From Pseudomonas sp. GM78 (lineage in GTDB: Bacteria; Pseudomonadota; Gammaproteobacteria; Pseudomonadales; Pseudomonadaceae): DNA of 55,327 nucleotides. The translations under genes and the position numbers were made by a program. The DNA is taken from assembly GCF_000282475.1 (NCBI RefSeq), contig NZ_AKJF01000068.1, positions 1-55,327 of the forward strand, written 5' to 3'. Below the pieces are notes generated by a model, which did not search any database, was not told the DNA's origin, and saw nothing but the letters and a program-made list of their open reading frames with translations. This document shows positions 372 to 46,461 of this stretch, in pieces (within the stretch, counting starts at the first letter, position 1; each line of letters begins with the position of its first letter).

Positions 372-2300
372 TTAGAGGTGTGCCTGGGCCCACCCTCGCA
401 CCTCGGCATACGGATAATCCTCCAAGACCGCAAACCCCGAAATAGTCCGCACCTTGAGCTTGGTAAACAGCGGCATACTGATTCCGCACAGAAACCGCGT
501 CACGCGTTCGGCCGACGGCACCTCCCCAGTGTGCTGTTGATGCCTGTGGATAAAACCGCTGCACAATGCCTCGAAGTTTTTATCCACAAGCGCCGGTAAT
601 GCCGGCGGTTCAGGCAGCCGCGCCACCTGCCCGTGGCAAACCGAGCAATGCCCGCACTGGCGAGGCACATTTTCGTCACCGAAATACTCGGCCAGGCGAT
701 AGCCCAGGCAGCGATCAGTGGCGAATAAATCCAGCATGGCGTGAATCCGCGCAACCTCGGTCTGTTCATGCCGAGTGAAACCGGCGTGCAGCTCTTCACT
801 CAACGCGGCACTGTCCAAACCGCTTTGCAGCAGGCTGTAGACCTCGGTCATCTGCTTGCTTTCCAGCTCGACCCAGCCCTTTTCCTGGAAATAATCCAGC
901 GCCTTGACCACCCGACTGCGCTCGGCCCGGTGCTGTTCATACAGCGCTTCGAAATTCACCGTGGCCCAGGTACGTGCGCGGCTGGACGTCTGGATGATCG
1001 CCGCGACGAAATCCCTGCGCTCGCCCTCGAAGCGGGCCAGCAATACCTCTGGCTCCTGCAGGTATTTGAACCGGTATTCGGCGTAATAGGCGTAACGCGG
1101 AGCGATCAAGCCACGAAGCTCCAACTGAACCAGCAAGGTCTTGAGCGGCAGCTGGCGGATGTTGCTCTGGTCTGCCAGAGGCCCCAGCAGAAACTCCCAT
1201 TGCCCTTCGGGCACGGCGGCCTGCATCTCGTCGAGCACGTAGCGGATACCGTCCCGTTCAGGCGTGTCACCGTAGACGAAGTTTTCCAGCACGTTGAGGC
1301 TGTCGCGATTGGCCAGCACCAGGCAGTCCGATGGCTGCCCATCCCGCCCGGCACGGCCGATTTCCTGGCTGTAGTTTTCGATGGATTTGGGCAGGTCGAA
1401 ATGCACCACGTTGCGGATGTCGCTCTTGTCGATGCCCATGCCGAAAGCGATGGTGGCGACGATGCAATTGGACTGCCCACCCATGAAACGCTTCTGAATG
1501 CCTTCGCGCTGCTCGTGGGGCAAGCCGGCGTGATAAGCCTCGGCCTGGATGCCATTGCGCTGTAGATGCTCAGCTATGTGCTCGGCGGTTTTCTGTAGGG
1601 TGACGTAGACAATGCTCGGCTGGCCGGGCCGCTGGCTCATCCACTCCACCAGGCGTCGGCGCTTGTCCTGGCCGCGAACCGGCTCCACCCACAGATTGAG
1701 GTTCGGCCGATAGAAACCGGTGGTCACCACGTCGCCAGGTTCGATGGCGAATTTCGCCTGCATGTCGGCGATCACTTTCGGAGTCGCGGTGGCGGTCAGC
1801 AATAACGCCTGGGGGATGTTGAACTGGCGCTGATAGTCCGGAAGCTTGAGGTAGTCCGGGCGAAAGTTATGCCCCCATTCCGAAATGCAATGCGCCTCAT
1901 CCACCACCAGCAGCGAGATGGGCACCTGCTGCAGGAAATTTCGAAAACGCTCGTTCTTCAGGCGCTCCACGGAGACCATCAGGATTTTCAGTTCGCCGGA
2001 CCTGGCGCGGGCCATGACATCGCTCGCGTCGTCACGACCCTGGGTCGAATCGATACTGCCCGCGGCAATGCCGTGTCGCTCCAGGAACGCCAACTGATCC
2101 TGCATCAGCGCCAGCAATGGCGAGACCACCAGCGTCAAGTGCGGCAGCAATACCGCCGACAGCTGATAACAAAGGGACTTGCCGGAACCGGTGGGGAAAA
2201 TAGCAGCCGCCGAGCGCCCCGCCAGCACCGCACTGACCACCGCCTCCTGACCGGGCCGAAACTGTGGATAACCGAAAACCTGTTCCAGGGTGTTGTGCAT
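372..2300 (-). CDS. recQ: RecQ-family ATP-dependent DNA helicase
   Basis: This 642-residue superfamily 2 DNA helicase should unwind DNA 3'-5' at the expense of ATP during recombination and fork repair. The Walker A motif GSGKS has its lysine at residue 41, followed by the DEAH box in VVDEAHCISEWGHNFRPDYL, the SAT-like LLTATATP, and motif VI QEIGRAGRDGQ. A zinc-binding subdomain near residue 550 carries the cysteines of TDRCLGY and CGHCSVC. The last 80 residues do not look like a clear HRDC domain, so this may be a RecQ paralogue rather than the main recQ. The ATG at 2300 has GGAG ten bases upstream. It is transcribed divergently from the S8 peptidase gene. Confidence 0.85.
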   Translation of the reverse strand: MHNTLEQVFGYPQFRPGQEAVVSAVLAGRSAAAIFPTGSGKSLCYQLSAVLLPHLTLVVSPLLALMQDQLAFLERHGIAAGSIDSTQGRDDASDVMARARSGELKILMVSVERLKNERFRNFLQQVPISLLVVDEAHCISEWGHNFRPDYLKLPDYQRQFNIPQALLLTATATPKVIADMQAKFAIEPGDVVTTGFYRPNLNLWVEPVRGQDKRRRLVEWMSQRPGQPSIVYVTLQKTAEHIAEHLQRNGIQAEAYHAGLPHEQREGIQKRFMGGQSNCIVATIAFGMGIDKSDIRNVVHFDLPKSIENYSQEIGRAGRDGQPSDCLVLANRDSLNVLENFVYGDTPERDGIRYVLDEMQAAVPEGQWEFLLGPLADQSNIRQLPLKTLLVQLELRGLIAPRYAYYAEYRFKYLQEPEVLLARFEGERRDFVAAIIQTSSRARTWATVNFEALYEQHRAERSRVVKALDYFQEKGWVELESKQMTEVYSLLQSGLDSAALSEELHAGFTRHEQTEVARIHAMLDLFATDRCLGYRLAEYFGDENVPRQCGHCSVCHGQVARLPEPPALPALVDKNFEALCSGFIHRHQQHTGEVPSAERVTRFLCGISMPLFTKLKVRTISGFAVLEDYPYAEVRGWAQAHL

Positions 2301-2485
2301 AAGCTGTCACTCCGTTGACTGCTGCGATGAGCAAAGCCTAGCCGGCGATCGCAGCGAGTCGAGAAAAGGTCGGGGGCAAAAACGATACGGGATGATACAG
2401 CGTTCCATCCACCGATCCTTGGCCACAGGTTGAAACACACGAGGCACTTTGCCAACTGACGCCAAGCTTCCCTCAGCCGGTATGG

Positions 2486-2499
2486 TTGATCTCCATCAA
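2486..2499. promoter_or_regulatory. Perfect Anr/FNR-type box upstream of the S8 peptidase
   Basis: The sequence TTGATCTCCATCAA matches the symmetric Anr/Dnr/FNR consensus TTGAT-N4-ATCAA exactly and extends to GGTTGAT/ATCAACC. It lies in the divergent region between recQ and the peptidase, centred 70 bases before the peptidase ATG, a workable distance for an activator site. No convincing -10 hexamer is visible at the expected spacing. The site is symmetric, so it could also act towards recQ. Confidence 0.55.
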
Positions 2500-2562
2500 C
2501 CTCCGTCAGGTGTTCATCATGCAGAAAGCCTGAGATACGCGGATCTATATCAAGGAACGATC

Positions 2563-3627
2563 ATGTCCCAAACATCCTGTTCACCATTCGCCCTCGTCCT
2601 GGTGTTTCCCGTGCTGTTGAGCGGATGCCTGACCGTCCCGGAACGACCTTCCCCTGACACTGCTGCATTCGAAACGCCGGAGTATCAAGCCCAAAAAGGT
2701 CTGGCGATTGTCAAAGCATCAAGTCTTTATGCCCGCGGCGGAACCGGCCAGGGTGTGGCTGTCGCACTGATCGACTCGGGCCTGAACAGCAGCTTGCCGG
2801 AGTTTCAAGGACGGCTCCGTGATCCGGGTTTTGATTATGTCGAGAATCAGGTCGGCACCATTGACCGGGTCGGACATGGCACCCAGATGGCCGGCATTCT
2901 CGCAGCTAACAAGGATGACCAAGGCATGCACGGCGTCGCGTTCAATGCACAGCTGATTCCCTATCGTTTTGGCGACGACAACGAACCGTTTTTCTTCGAC
3001 AGTGAAATCGCTCAGTCCTGGCAAGCAGGTTTCGACAAGGGCACGCGCATTTTCAACAACTCGTGGGCCAACGCCATTCCAGCGACCGAAATCAACGAGG
3101 CGCGCTACAAGCAGGTCATGCCGCAATCAATGGTTACCGCGCGAAAACTGGTTGAGGACGGTGCTGTATTTGTTTTCCCTACCGGCAATGAGCTGAAACG
3201 AGAACCCTTGGCTGAACCCGGCTTACCTGTCGCCATACCCGAACTGGAAAAAGGCTGGATTGCGGTGGTTGCGTTGAAAAACGACGGTAGCGCCATCAAT
3301 GCCAAATCCAATTATTGTGGCGTGGCGGCAGCTTGGTGCATCGCCGTACCGGGCGGCGACTCCGGTGCAGGGCAAGGCTTGCTAACCACCAGCAAGGATG
3401 GCAAATATACCCAGACGGCAGGCACCTCACCTGCTGCCGCGCTGGTCAGCGGTGCATTGGCGGCATTGCAAAGCCGTTACCCCGAACTCACCGCGCAGCA
3501 AGTACGCGAGCGTCTGCTGTCGACGGCAAACCGGACTGGCATCTATGCCAACAGTGAGGCGTACGGTAGAGGATTAATGGATCTCGATGCGGCATCGCGC
3601 CAGGTGCCAAAGGTTTTGGCCAAGTAA
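2563..3627 (+). CDS. S8 (subtilisin-like) serine peptidase, predicted lipoprotein
   Basis: The 354-residue product is a subtilase. The catalytic triad is visible as Asp71 (VALIDSG), His105 (VGHGTQMAG) and Ser289 (AGTSPAAALVSGAL), with the oxyanion Asn in FPTGNE. The N-terminus is a lipoprotein signal with lipobox LLSGC (Cys22), so the enzyme is probably anchored to a membrane facing the periplasm or exposed on the surface. The chosen ATG has AGGA nine bases upstream and gives a clean signal peptide; an in-frame start at 2449 would bury it. Compared with secreted subtilases it has only a short prodomain-like stretch (residues 23-60). It stands alone in its operon. An Anr-type box 64 bases upstream suggests induction at low oxygen. 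The substrate is unknown. Confidence 0.85.
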   Translation: MSQTSCSPFALVLVFPVLLSGCLTVPERPSPDTAAFETPEYQAQKGLAIVKASSLYARGGTGQGVAVALIDSGLNSSLPEFQGRLRDPGFDYVENQVGTIDRVGHGTQMAGILAANKDDQGMHGVAFNAQLIPYRFGDDNEPFFFDSEIAQSWQAGFDKGTRIFNNSWANAIPATEINEARYKQVMPQSMVTARKLVEDGAVFVFPTGNELKREPLAEPGLPVAIPELEKGWIAVVALKNDGSAINAKSNYCGVAAAWCIAVPGGDSGAGQGLLTTSKDGKYTQTAGTSPAAALVSGALAALQSRYPELTAQQVRERLLSTANRTGIYANSEAYGRGLMDLDAASRQVPKVLAK

Positions 3628-3928: not shown

Positions 3929-4219
3929 ATGAACAACGCCGATCCACTGACCGACCGCTATCACCTGCTCAAGTCCAGTAACAGCGAAACCCCAGTGCTG
4001 GTAATCGACACCGAGGCTGACCCCCTGGAAATCCTCGACGCCGCCCGTCAACGCATCCGCGCCGCCAGTGACCTTCTGGAAACCTTGTACTGCCTGTGCT
4101 TCAAACAGGCCGACGCCAGCGACATCCCCAACATCGTCAACGCGCTGTACCTGCTGACCCAGGATGGTAACGACCTGCTCGACATCGCCCGGCAACGCCT
4201 GACGAAACTCACCGACTGA
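3929..4219 (+). CDS. Small helical protein, paralogue of the 4624-4923 product
   Basis: This 96-residue protein of unknown function is rich in amphipathic helix and has no signal peptide or membrane segment. Its central part (VIDTEADPLEILDAARQRI, then ASDLLETL) and C-terminal part (IPNIVNALYLLTQDGNDLL) match the product of 4624-4923 nearly position by position, so the two genes arose by duplication. The layout resembles the small DUF3077/DUF6124-type proteins common in Pseudomonas, but that assignment is tentative. The ATG at 3929 is preceded by AGGA; a longer in-frame start at 3878 is less likely because the paralogue aligns only from here. Function is not known. Confidence 0.7.
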   Translation: MNNADPLTDRYHLLKSSNSETPVLVIDTEADPLEILDAARQRIRAASDLLETLYCLCFKQADASDIPNIVNALYLLTQDGNDLLDIARQRLTKLTD

Positions 4220-4390: not shown

Positions 4391-4587
4391 CGCTGCCAAA
4401 TCAGCGGCTCGGGTTTGGTCACCTGAAAATGAGAGAAAACTTACGCATGCGCTTGTATGCTGTCGACATCTTTTTGTCGGCACACTTTATGGCGGCTGTG
4501 TTTGGGACGCTTCGGCGTGCCCGGGTTATCTCTCCCTGGTTTGACCAACCTGAACACAGTCCGCCTCCCAATCGCTTGGTCACGATT
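4391..4587 (+). ncRNA. Structured leader RNA, copy B (upstream of small protein gene)
   Basis: The element lies in the 404-base gap before the gene at 4624. Its stems, in order, are H1 CGCTG/CAGCG (4391-4406), H2 with loop TTGGTC (4410-4425), P0 CGACA/TGTCG with a 6-base T-rich loop (4464-4479), a long P1 GGCGGCTGTGTT (4491-4502) closing with 4553-4565, an inner P2 capped by a cTTCGg tetraloop (4504-4522), and P4 AATCG/CGATT (4570-4587). The same order of elements with compensatory base changes occurs at 44997-45190, also just before a small protein gene. TTGGTCA occurs in the loops of H2 and P4, and its complement TGACCAA lies at 4542-4548. I infer a cis-acting leader; a free sRNA is possible. 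Confidence 0.7.
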
Positions 4588-4623
4588 ACGGCGGTTCATC
4601 GGCTACTAAAAGAGAAAATCCCA

Positions 4624-4923
4624 ATGAACAAATGGAACCCGTTCAACAACGAACGCTACCTCCCGCTCCACACCAACCTCACCGACACCATTCCGCTAGT
4701 CATCGACACAGAAGCCAACCCCCAACACATCCTCGAAGCCGCTCTCCAGCGCATTCGGGCTTCCAGCGAGCTCCTGCAAACCCTGCACTGCCAAAGCTTC
4801 CATGACGGCGACGTCGAAGACATCCCGCACATCACCCACGCGCTCTACCTTCTGACACAGGACGGCTGCGACCTGCTCAAAGTCGCTCAGCAACGCATGC
4901 TCAACTGGAAAGCTCCGGTTTAA
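4624..4923 (+). CDS. Small helical protein with structured RNA leader
   Basis: This 99-residue protein of unknown function is a paralogue of the 3929-4219 product; the shared cores are VIDTEANPQHILEAALQRI, SSELLQTLHC and ITHALYLLTQDGCDLL. It is predicted to be soluble and mainly alpha-helical. The N-terminal 25 residues differ from the paralogue. The start is ATG at 4624, after an AGAGAAAATCCCA stretch with a weak purine-rich ribosome site, 37 bases after the last leader hairpin. That spacing would let the leader influence translation. The resemblance to the Pseudomonas DUF3077/DUF6124-type families is in length and helix pattern only. Its job is unknown. Confidence 0.75.
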   Translation: MNKWNPFNNERYLPLHTNLTDTIPLVIDTEANPQHILEAALQRIRASSELLQTLHCQSFHDGDVEDIPHITHALYLLTQDGCDLLKVAQQRMLNWKAPV

Positions 4924-4965: not shown

Positions 4966-5172
4966 AAGAAACAAGATTTGGTTCGATTGAAAACAATGCG
5001 CATCGAAAGCCACCATCGAACATTGGTGATAGCAATGAACAGATTTTTTGATGAGCTAATGGAAAGCGTTCAACAGATGAACGAGATTCTGCGGGATGAA
5101 TGTCGATACGAATTCTTCCCCTCCAGTCCAACGCCCAATAAGATCTGTCCAAGCCCACCCGGACACCCCGCA

Positions 5173-5526
5173 ATGAACCTCGCCCCCAACCTCCCCGACG
5201 ACCCCACCCTCCAACTGCTCATCCAGCTTCTACACGAAGAACTCGGCCTCCCCGAACGCAAAACCATCAGCCTCAACACCTCGATCAACTTCGACCTGAA
5301 CTGCAACGGTGTCGATGCACAACACTTGATCGAAACCCTGGAAGATCACTTCGCCATCGATTTCGTGGATTACGACAGTTATCGCTATTTCCACCCCGAA
5401 GGCTACGATGTATTTCTCAAACGCAAAGCCAAGGGTCGCGGCGTCAAGGAACCATTGACCATCGGCATGCTCTACCGAGCAATCAAAGCTCAACGCTGGG
5501 ACACCCGGGAGCTCGAAGGCCTGTAG
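5173..5526 (+). CDS. DUF1493-family protein
   Basis: The 117-residue product has the DUF1493 layout: an acidic N-terminal helix with EELGLPERKTISLNTSINFD, a central VDAQHLIETLEDHFAIDFVD, and a basic C-terminal part ending LTIGMLYRAIKAQRW. The family resembles small acyl-carrier-like folds, but its function is not known. Reading is open in frame back to 4930, and ATGs at 4996, 5035 and 5080 have no better ribosome sites. I chose 5173 because family similarity begins there; the start remains uncertain. The next gene begins 33 bases downstream and could be co-transcribed. Confidence 0.65.
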   Translation: MNLAPNLPDDPTLQLLIQLLHEELGLPERKTISLNTSINFDLNCNGVDAQHLIETLEDHFAIDFVDYDSYRYFHPEGYDVFLKRKAKGRGVKEPLTIGMLYRAIKAQRWDTRELEGL

Positions 5527-44870: not shown

Positions 44871-44996
44871 CTCTTGGCGACATTTCGTACAAGAAAATCG
44901 GCAATTCTGAAGGCTCAATCCCTTTCCTTTGCAGGACGTTTCCTAGATTATTCCGCTCGCTTGCGCCTGCCAAACTCCGTGGTTAGTCTCGGTCCG

Positions 44997-45190
44997 TCAC
45001 TGTTCAACAGTGATCGGGTTTAGTAGCCCGGAACAATAGGCGCATAGCGATTCCATGCTCATGTCCGGCATTTTTTTGCCGAGTGTGAAATATGGTGGCT
45101 GTGCGTGGGGTACCTTCGGGTGCACCGGTTTCTCCTATTGACCGGCCTACTAACCTGCGTACAGCCGCCACCCAATCGTTTAGTAGGCGA
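44997..45190 (+). ncRNA. Structured leader RNA, copy A (upstream of small protein gene)
   Basis: This element is homologous in layout to 4391-4587. It has H1 TCACTG/CAGTGA (44997-45013); H2 CGGG/CCCG with loop TTTAGTAG (45015-45030); P0 CGGCA/TGCCG with a T6 loop (45066-45081); P1 GGTGGCTGTGCG (45094-45105) closing with 45158-45172; P2 with a cTTCGg loop (45107-45126); P3 CCGGT/ACCGG (45125-45145); and P4 TCG/CGA with loop TTTAGTAGG (45176-45190). Stem bases differ from copy B in compensating pairs (CACTG/CAGTG against CGCTG/CAGCG; CGGCA/TGCCG against CGACA/TGTCG). TTAGTAG occurs in both H2 and P4 loops, and its complement CCTACTAA lies at 45146-45153. The protein start is 36 bases downstream. 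Confidence 0.72.
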
Positions 45191-45226
45191 GAAGTGTCGG
45201 CTCCCATGCAGCAATAGGAGCAACAC

Positions 45227-45568
45227 ATGGAAAGATCAGTCCCCGATCCACCCCCCGAAACCTCCACCGAAGACCCACTCAGGGATCGATCAGCGCTCTA
45301 CCGCGCCATTGATTTCTACCTCACCGGCGATCAACCCTCCCCGCCCGACGAACTACGGTTCTACAACGTCAGCAAAGACGTGAGCTTCGAAGACACCCTA
45401 CTCTACATTGCCGACCTGCTGCGCTGCGCCTCGGTCACGGCGTATCAATGTGGCGACCATCTCAAGGGCGCCGACCGTGCAATGGTGTTCTCGGTTTGGC
45501 ATTTGCTGGAGATCGCCAAGGCGATGGTGGATCACTCCATCGAGTGCCTGGGGATGAAAAAGGGTTGA
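45227..45568 (+). CDS. Small helical protein with structured RNA leader (DUF6124-like)
   Basis: The 113-residue soluble protein has a proline-rich acidic N-terminus (PDPPPETSTEDPL) and helical segments SALYRAIDFYLTG, FEDTLLYIADLLRCASVTAY and VFSVWHLLEIAKAMVDHSIE. The arrangement resembles DUF6124-type proteins that are multi-copy in Pseudomonas; this is a pattern match only. It is less similar to the 3929 and 4624 products than they are to each other, but it has the same kind of leader RNA as 4624. The ATG has AGGAG seven bases upstream. Function is unknown. Confidence 0.75.
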   Translation: MERSVPDPPPETSTEDPLRDRSALYRAIDFYLTGDQPSPPDELRFYNVSKDVSFEDTLLYIADLLRCASVTAYQCGDHLKGADRAMVFSVWHLLEIAKAMVDHSIECLGMKKG

Positions 45569-45579
45569 GTCAGTGAAAT

Positions 45580-45666
45580 CGCCTTCGCGGGCAAGTCGGA
45601 TCGCCGCCCGCTCGCTCCTACAGATGACCGCGTGATCCGTAGGAGCCAGGCTTGCCGGCGAATGGC
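45580..45666. repeat. Imperfect inverted REP pair
   Basis: Two diverged, inverted units (TTCGCGGGCAAGTCGG... and ...GGAGCCAGGCTTGCCGGCGAA) lie between the small gene and the methyltransferase gene. Arms are broken by several mismatches. Confidence 0.6.
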
Positions 45667-45704
45667 GTATATTTGGCGGACTCACATCAGACGCGCAGCC
45701 GACC

Positions 45705-46331: not shown

Positions 46332-46362
46332 AGCCTTGAATTTGTACTGTGCTAACTGACGC

Positions 46363-46444
46363 CATCGCCAGCAGGCTGGCTCCCACAGGGATCGAGTTGT
46401 GTGTACCAACGCGGTCAACTGTGGGAGCCAGCCTGCTGGCGATG
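46363..46444. repeat. Inverted REP pair
   Basis: Perfect arms 46363-46388 and 46419-46444 (core CCAGCAGGCTGGCTCCCACA) lie between the convergent methyltransferase and triC genes, where they could serve as a shared transcript end. Confidence 0.87.
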
Positions 46445-46461
46445 AGCGCGCAGCGCTCGCC

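Follow-up and report, generated by a model that had tools for sequence, protein, structure and literature searches.

Two places in a 55,327-nt contig of Pseudomonas sp. GM78 (NZ_AKJF01000068.1, hereafter the window) raise the question of why a short word should stand twice ahead of a small gene, on either side of its own complement. At the first of them (copy A), TTAGTAG occurs at 45020-45026 and again at 45180-45186, with the complementary CCTACTAA at 45146-45153; at the second (copy B), TTGGTCA occupies 4415-4421 and 4576-4582, and TGACCAA lies at 4542-4548, all on the forward strand and exactly where a sequence-only reading had located them. That reading took the element for a two-state pseudoknot switch that controls access to the following ORF or, alternatively, for a contact between RNAs. 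Triples of this kind (a 7-mer, its complement, and the 7-mer again) appear in 40 of 20,000 dinucleotide shuffles of the copy A stretch and in 50 of 20,000 of the copy B stretch; each is thus a chance event of about 0.2%, and both copies share one arrangement. In copy A, the match on the 3′ side is longer, GCCTACTAA (45145-45153) pairing with TTAGTAGGC (45180-45188), and there is a second triple that had been missed: CTCCTATTG (45132-45140) is complementary to CAATAGG (45034-45040) and to CAATAGGAG (45212-45220), which is the Shine-Dalgarno region, six bases before the ATG at 45227, of an ORF (45227-45568) for a 113-aa protein of the DUF6124 family (Pfam PF19619, E 3.8e-11). The second triple of copy B is weaker, as TCTCTC (4529-4534) matches GAGAGA (4431-4436) but merely the 5 nt of AGAGA (4611-4615) near the start codon of the next ORF (4624-4923), which has a poor Shine-Dalgarno sequence and encodes a 99-aa protein without a Pfam family; we refer to this protein and the members of its BLAST cluster as the copy B family.

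An Rfam scan of the window returned two matches above the gathering threshold (45 bits), both to RF01695: copy A at 45088-45175 (73 bits, E 2.2e-12) and copy B at 4485-4571 (49.3 bits, E 1.7e-06). The element is the core of a C4 antisense RNA unit, the immunity RNA of phages P1 and P7 and akin to the CI RNA of P4, and this identifies the three segments as a1 (leader), a′ (inside C4) and a2 (behind C4), with b1, b′ and b2 as their counterparts in the second triple. In both copies a′ is complementary to a1 and a2, as it is at 6 nt for both sites in 20 of the 22 units of the host genome, and b′ matches the ribosome binding site ahead of the following gene over 9 nt in copy A, where it is an anti-Shine-Dalgarno sequence, and over a weak 5 nt in copy B. 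The order of the sites is antiparallel on both flanks, C4 reading 5′-b′..a′-3′ and its targets 5′-a..b-3′, so that C4 could touch either flank through two short helices. Copy A is predicted to fold into a long closing stem with two hairpins (-45.8 kcal/mol, z -5.75) and copy B into a closing stem with two inner hairpins (-38.7 kcal/mol, z -4.29), and in the minimum-energy folds of both b′ occupies a hairpin loop and a′ an unpaired junction. The stem starts with GGT in copy A and GGC in copy B, both of them motifs named in PMC5320573.

Ahead of C4, the copy A leader is predicted to form two hairpins (44996-45014 and 45015-45030), similar by eye in other units, the second of which presents a1. 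This a1 hairpin is presumably the c4-a1b1 motif. A logo built from 106 of the 143 units, with the leader hairpin as its anchor, has conserved promoter-like positions and ends just before the a1 hairpin; in copy A these positions correspond to a candidate -35 element (TTGCGC, 44961-44966) and, after 17 nt, a candidate -10 element (TAGTCT, 44984-44989), while a consensus promoter scan of the copy A leader found no promoter. An intrinsic terminator between a1 and C4 was considered as a general part of the unit and rejected. A simple rule finds one in 5 of the 22 host units, 1 of the 43 in a second Pseudomonas genome (G097), and 18/78 and 33/80 units of two collections, which is above mononucleotide shuffles (means 0.05 to 0.25), and we make no claim for its formal match in copy A, a 5-pair stem over a long loop. 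The nearest neighbours of copy A are genes for an ABC-transporter permease and a methyltransferase, the next gene being that for DUF6124, and a phage immunity context of the immI or P4 type (downstream antirepressor or replication genes, a prophage) was not found there. Behind the DUF6124 gene lie inverted repeats around CTGTGGGAGCCAGCCTGCTGGCGATG and a relative (45575-45670 and 46360-46450), which are presumably ordinary Pseudomonas REP sequences, and behind copy B lies a DUF1493 gene (5038-5526).

The unit resembles the C4 of P1 and P7 in its covariance match, in its stem with two hairpins, in the pairing of a′ and b′ with flanking a and b sites and in having b2 on the ribosome binding site of the ORF that follows; compared with it in model and layout, it differs in lying between ordinary chromosomal genes, in preceding DUF6124 instead of icd/ant, and in being one of 22 copies with different codes in a single genome. 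The CI of satellite phage P4, a phage in which the name seqB is also used, is similarly one RNA complementary to one upstream and one downstream site of the same transcript, a likeness of arrangement. P4 CI pairs with seqA and seqC, and its action is described as transcription termination (PMC4825925); here, the downstream site covers the Shine-Dalgarno sequence, and a translation block is therefore the likelier outcome. RNase P is the processing enzyme of known C4 RNA, whose b′ loop partially masks ribosome binding sites and whose a′ provides specificity (PMC5320573). The same source reports 21 C4-like sRNAs (Group 1) with variable a′ in Acinetobacter baumannii AB5075, 15 of them with a conserved upstream hairpin (Region 1), and states that, with two exceptions among the full-length ones examined, GGW, the phage processing site, marks the start of the high-coverage part (PMC5320573). 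Compared by description, the Pseudomonas units differ in that their likely targets, which the available part of that account does not name for Acinetobacter, are their own leader and the Shine-Dalgarno sequence of their own gene, and in that we read the upstream hairpin as the a1 target. With IsrK of Gifsy-1 and the c4-a1b1 motif, the latter named in a table of Weinberg 2010 (PMC2864571), the unit shares a hairpin RNA that precedes C4 within a single transcription unit, as described for B. cenocepacia (PMC4603805), whereas the Rfam covariance scan of the window gave no gathering-level match to isrK RNA (RF01394).

Units of this kind are abundant in the genus. Genome searches found 22 in the host and 43 in G097 (42 over the cut-off), and in a sample of 99 genomes from the larger group of Pseudomonas genomes, the host included, 92 carry at least one C4 at E 0.001 (91 over the cut-off). 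The median is 13 per genome, 58 of the 99 have at least 10 and 20 at least 30, counts near 39 being "at least" values. Across the order, with the genus included, C4 is present in 29 of the 194 genomes and 17 of the 96 genera sampled.

So many copies in one cell raise the matter of who pairs with whom. We took a′ and b′ from windows at fixed offsets from the C4 ends and compared them with the flanks of their own unit and of all others, counting as a match at least 6 nt of exact complementarity. Given the fixed offsets, single units can be misjudged (in L003, a1 is cut by the search interval, yet present in the sequence); since b2 was accepted anywhere in a 65-nt window, some b2 matches are off-site; and the cross-unit controls are conservative, since some of the units compared there share a code. 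Besides the two genomes, we used two collections gathered with a strict C4 pattern, one of 80 loci from 87 viral stretches (80 usable places) and one of 80 out of at least 120 stretches from named genomes (78 usable), which removal of identical codes reduced to 41 and 75 units. In the host, C4 matches its own a1 in 21, a2 in 21, b1 in 18 and b2 in 20 of 22 units, against 59, 50, 124 and 105 of 462 cross-unit comparisons; for G097, the respective numbers are 43, 40, 32 and 35 of 43 against 288, 268, 407 and 475 of 1806; for the viral contigs, 39, 40, 30 and 36 of 41 against 269, 217, 393 and 353 of 1640; and for the named genomes, 67, 72, 56 and 60 of 75 against 591, 606, 1120 and 1182 of 5550. 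The own-unit mean was reached in none of 10,000 permutations for any site in any of the four sets. There are 15 distinct a2 words among the 21 host units that have a2 and 25 among the 40 of G097, and of the 20 host units that have both a2 and b2, 15 show a b2 ending 2-14 nt before an ATG. The best b2 match that the test gives for copy B is a different 6-mer, AACCCG, which lies within the beginning of the ORF and is probably due to chance.

When a2 and b2 are scored jointly, the cognate C4 ranks alone at the top for 18 of the 22 host targets and 28 of the 43 in G097. A rule demanding at least 6 nt at both sites is satisfied by 19/22 and 33/43 cognate pairs, leaving 3 and 10 units that fail it (2 and 9 with slightly different windows), and by 12/462 and 72/1806 non-cognate ones, so that some cross-talk is to be expected; only 14/22 host and 15/43 G097 C4s are without any non-cognate target by this rule. 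The codes are therefore mostly, not fully, private, and b adds to a.

The sequence-only reading had claimed, from two copies, that all three sites change together, and this was correct, the pattern surviving a covariation check over homologues. Of 161 pairs of units with a protein identity of 80% or more, 79 have no a′ 6-mer in common, and 74 of the 79 retain a1 and a2 in both members. Without the loci of the viral collection, 64 pairs remain, of which 32, involving 34 units, share no a′ 6-mer, and all 32 keep a1 and a2. A looser count in 11-nt windows has 44 of the 64 differing, again all with a1 and a2 kept; we use the stricter count because some of the 44 differ in register alone. In one genome, two units about 4 kb apart (L072 and L076) encode proteins 99.2% identical, and their a1/a2 sites read TTGGTAG in one and TTAGCGA in the other. 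These pairs are overlapping rather than independent events, and the swapping of whole leaders may explain some of the differing ones; matched sets are kept either way.

We regard it as very probable that each unit is a self-silencing module of the C4 type, that is, a two-site antisense repressor acting on its own transcript, an explanation that is not mutually exclusive with the four alternatives weighed below. It is directly supported by family membership, by both sets of sites, their order and their co-change, and by the overlap with the Shine-Dalgarno sequence. In such a module, the transcript would start just before the a1 hairpin and run through a1, b1, C4, a2 and b2 into the ORF. C4 would fold independently, its b′ exposed at a hairpin loop and its a′ at the junction, and RNase P would release it from the leader, as in phage C4. 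The released RNA would pair in trans with further molecules of the transcript from which it came, the a′-a2 helix acting as the address and the b′-b2 helix covering the Shine-Dalgarno sequence and blocking translation of the small DUF6124 protein; that a unit would repress its own gene is proposed by analogy. With a and b particular to each unit, units would be expected to silence mainly themselves. For the pairing at a1 and b1, ahead of C4, our guess is early termination or a sink, through which C4 would limit its own supply. Two elements of the sequence-only reading hold in this scheme: one strand can pair with the upstream or the downstream site, to the exclusion of the other, and the contact is a regulatory one between RNA segments, placed where access to the ORF could be controlled.

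The presumed targets are small genes of a few families. By BLAST clustering, the ORFs after the host C4s encode 13 DUF6124 proteins, 3 DUF3077 proteins, 4 members of the copy B family, one short protein of 52 residues and one Bro-N protein, the same 13 DUF6124 and 3 DUF3077 genes being over the cut-offs in whole-genome Pfam searches. In G097 the corresponding numbers are 32, 3, 4, 1 and 0, with one other, and for 71 ORFs from the named genomes they are 39 DUF6124, 8 DUF3077, 11 copy B family and 10 short, with 3 unassigned. An ORF of at least 40 codons follows 22/22 host and 41/43 G097 units; in two of the three host DUF3077 units (L004 and L013) about 120 nt separate C4 from the start of the called ORF, and a shorter ORF opens at the ATG adjacent to b2. 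Over the 99 genomes, the copy numbers of C4 and DUF6124 correlate with a Spearman coefficient of 0.886 (uncorrected for kinship), and 14 genomes have C4 without DUF6124. The DUF6124 protein at 45227-45568 is predicted to be a helical hairpin (mean pLDDT 79.8), and helical hairpins are likewise predicted for the cargo. In a comparison with the PDB they gave no match at E 0.001 or better, and weak matches to ESAT-6-like, Dps/ferritin-like and LasR-bound Aqs1 structures were not used. Profile comparisons between the cargo families, based on small alignments, gave no support for homology (probabilities of 1.8% or less), and in a PHROGs scan of nine cargo proteins the DUF3077 protein matched two families (E 9e-13 and 0.016) and the other eight none. 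An N-terminal PxPP motif (P6, P8 and P9; 45227-45253) is nearly invariant in 41 DUF6124-type proteins, and a similar start, PDPPYE, is seen in part of the copy B family, although profile comparison gives no match between the two families. Directly ahead of copy B, an ORF at 3929-4219 encodes an intact paralogue of the copy B protein (53% identity) without a C4 match, and this paralogue offers a natural control for silencing.

Whether these small proteins might be growth inhibitors held down by C4, in the manner of a type I toxin-antitoxin set, bears on the cargo more than on the circuit, and such a set would be compatible with self-silencing. DUF6124 is absent from all 7 of the 99 genomes that have no C4 match, and in P1 the immI operon, to which icd and ant belong, is under the control of C4 (PMC8198154). 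Strong toxicity is nevertheless argued against by the 3 of the 16 host DUF6124 genes that are without a C4 and by the C4-less paralogue upstream of copy B, all of them intact, and the cargo has no match of the said significance to a solved structure; we consider this account rather unlikely.

The pseudoknot switch of the sequence-only reading, in which C4 stays in the leader and a′ alternates between a1 and a2 of the same molecule, draws on the same complementarities, and the order of the sites and their distances would permit it. Known C4 and CI RNAs, however, work as separate RNAs after processing (PMC5320573, PMC4825925), C4 folds alone with a very stable closing stem, and the second contact between b′ and b2 would be superfluous for a switch. 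As the studied members of the family are cut from their leader, a repressor acting in trans is the likelier form and an intramolecular switch seems improbable to us; the contact between RNAs that the same reading gave as its alternative comes nearer to the explanation we favour.

Self-silencing modules of this form probably descend from the immunity modules of phage early operons, which would have multiplied in Pseudomonas with small genes that the host retained. One host unit (L003, G000:C9:49075-49161) has the classic phage arrangement, with C4 preceding a Bro-N antirepressor-like gene. Outside the genus but within the order, we found 20 loci in nine genomes (one, G266, from the same family), 18 of them with both a1 and a2 of at least 6 nt. 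Six ORFs that follow C4 in other genera were scanned and proved to encode phage antirepressors (one Rha, one AntA, one KilA-N and three Bro-N proteins), these six loci thus being like P1 in what lies downstream; at L335-L338, also outside the genus, C4 precedes small ORFs. In Pseudomonas, five loci (L043 at 1588-3085, L042, L045, L055 and L062) are prophage-like operons in which C4 is followed by an ORF of 52-57 aa with a ALRANSSLSVRL-like motif and then by small proteins (DUF3077 confirmed in L043, by eye in the others), several of them with a larger, by eye primase-like ORF. In L043 the order is C4, a short ORF, a 94-aa ORF, a DUF3077 protein and then a protein with a weak, below-threshold match to the CHC2 zinc finger. 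These arrangements suggest that the cargo came from phage early operons.

A phage origin would also suit the idea that the units are decaying remnants, whose complementarities were inherited from prophage immunity regions and serve no present function. Some units do look broken: a2 is lost in L073, L112 and, outside the genus, L341 and L344, with a1 and a′ still matching in all four; by our ORF rule no ORF follows L073, L112 or L344; and the ORFs of L082, L102 and L106 look by eye shortened or shifted relative to their family. Yet every one of the 32 non-viral pairs with different a′ keeps a1 and a2, a2 is retained in 21/22 host and 40/43 G097 units, and an ORF of at least 40 codons follows 22/22 and 41/43 of them, which makes decay a very improbable account of the whole. 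Least probable of all is an RNA immunity array, in which chromosomal C4s would silence the early operons of incoming phages with matching a2/b2 sites: although it could coexist with self-silencing, phage contigs bear the same kind of unit with overlapping codes, C4 sets heteroimmunity in P1/P7 (PMC12197685) and such a role has been suggested for Acinetobacter (PMC5320573), we rejected it because C4 matches to 19 phage-type targets are not enriched over reshuffled b′ (19 for the host against 13.9 expected, as high in 315 of 2000 reshufflings; 12 for G097 against 9.8, as high in 600 of 2000) and nearly every C4 has its own target in cis.

Returning to self-silencing, we lean towards a wider reading for the genus, in which Pseudomonas carries, in many genomes, dozens of free-standing, phage-derived C4 units with private two-part addresses, which spread together with their proteins, each silencing its own helical-hairpin protein (DUF6124, DUF3077 and their kin). 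As codes change while all sites stay matched, we propose that selection holds each circuit together and keeps the units from silencing one another. On the same reading, one Pseudomonas cell may contain one of the largest collections of antisense RNA-target pairs working in parallel. C4 RNA and the logic of its flanking sites are known; what is new is their expansion over host genes and many codes in Pseudomonas, and in the open-licence literature, taken without supplements, we found no paper linking C4 with DUF6124 or describing private C4 codes in this genus. The finding offers an explanation for the leaders of an abundant and unstudied Pseudomonas gene family, DUF6124/DUF3077, and predicts that its genes would be kept off by their own leader RNA. 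Dozens of naturally matched antisense and target codes per cell would make a ready system for studying the address specificity of short RNAs, and they hint at where the targets of C4-like RNAs elsewhere, for instance in Acinetobacter, may be sought.
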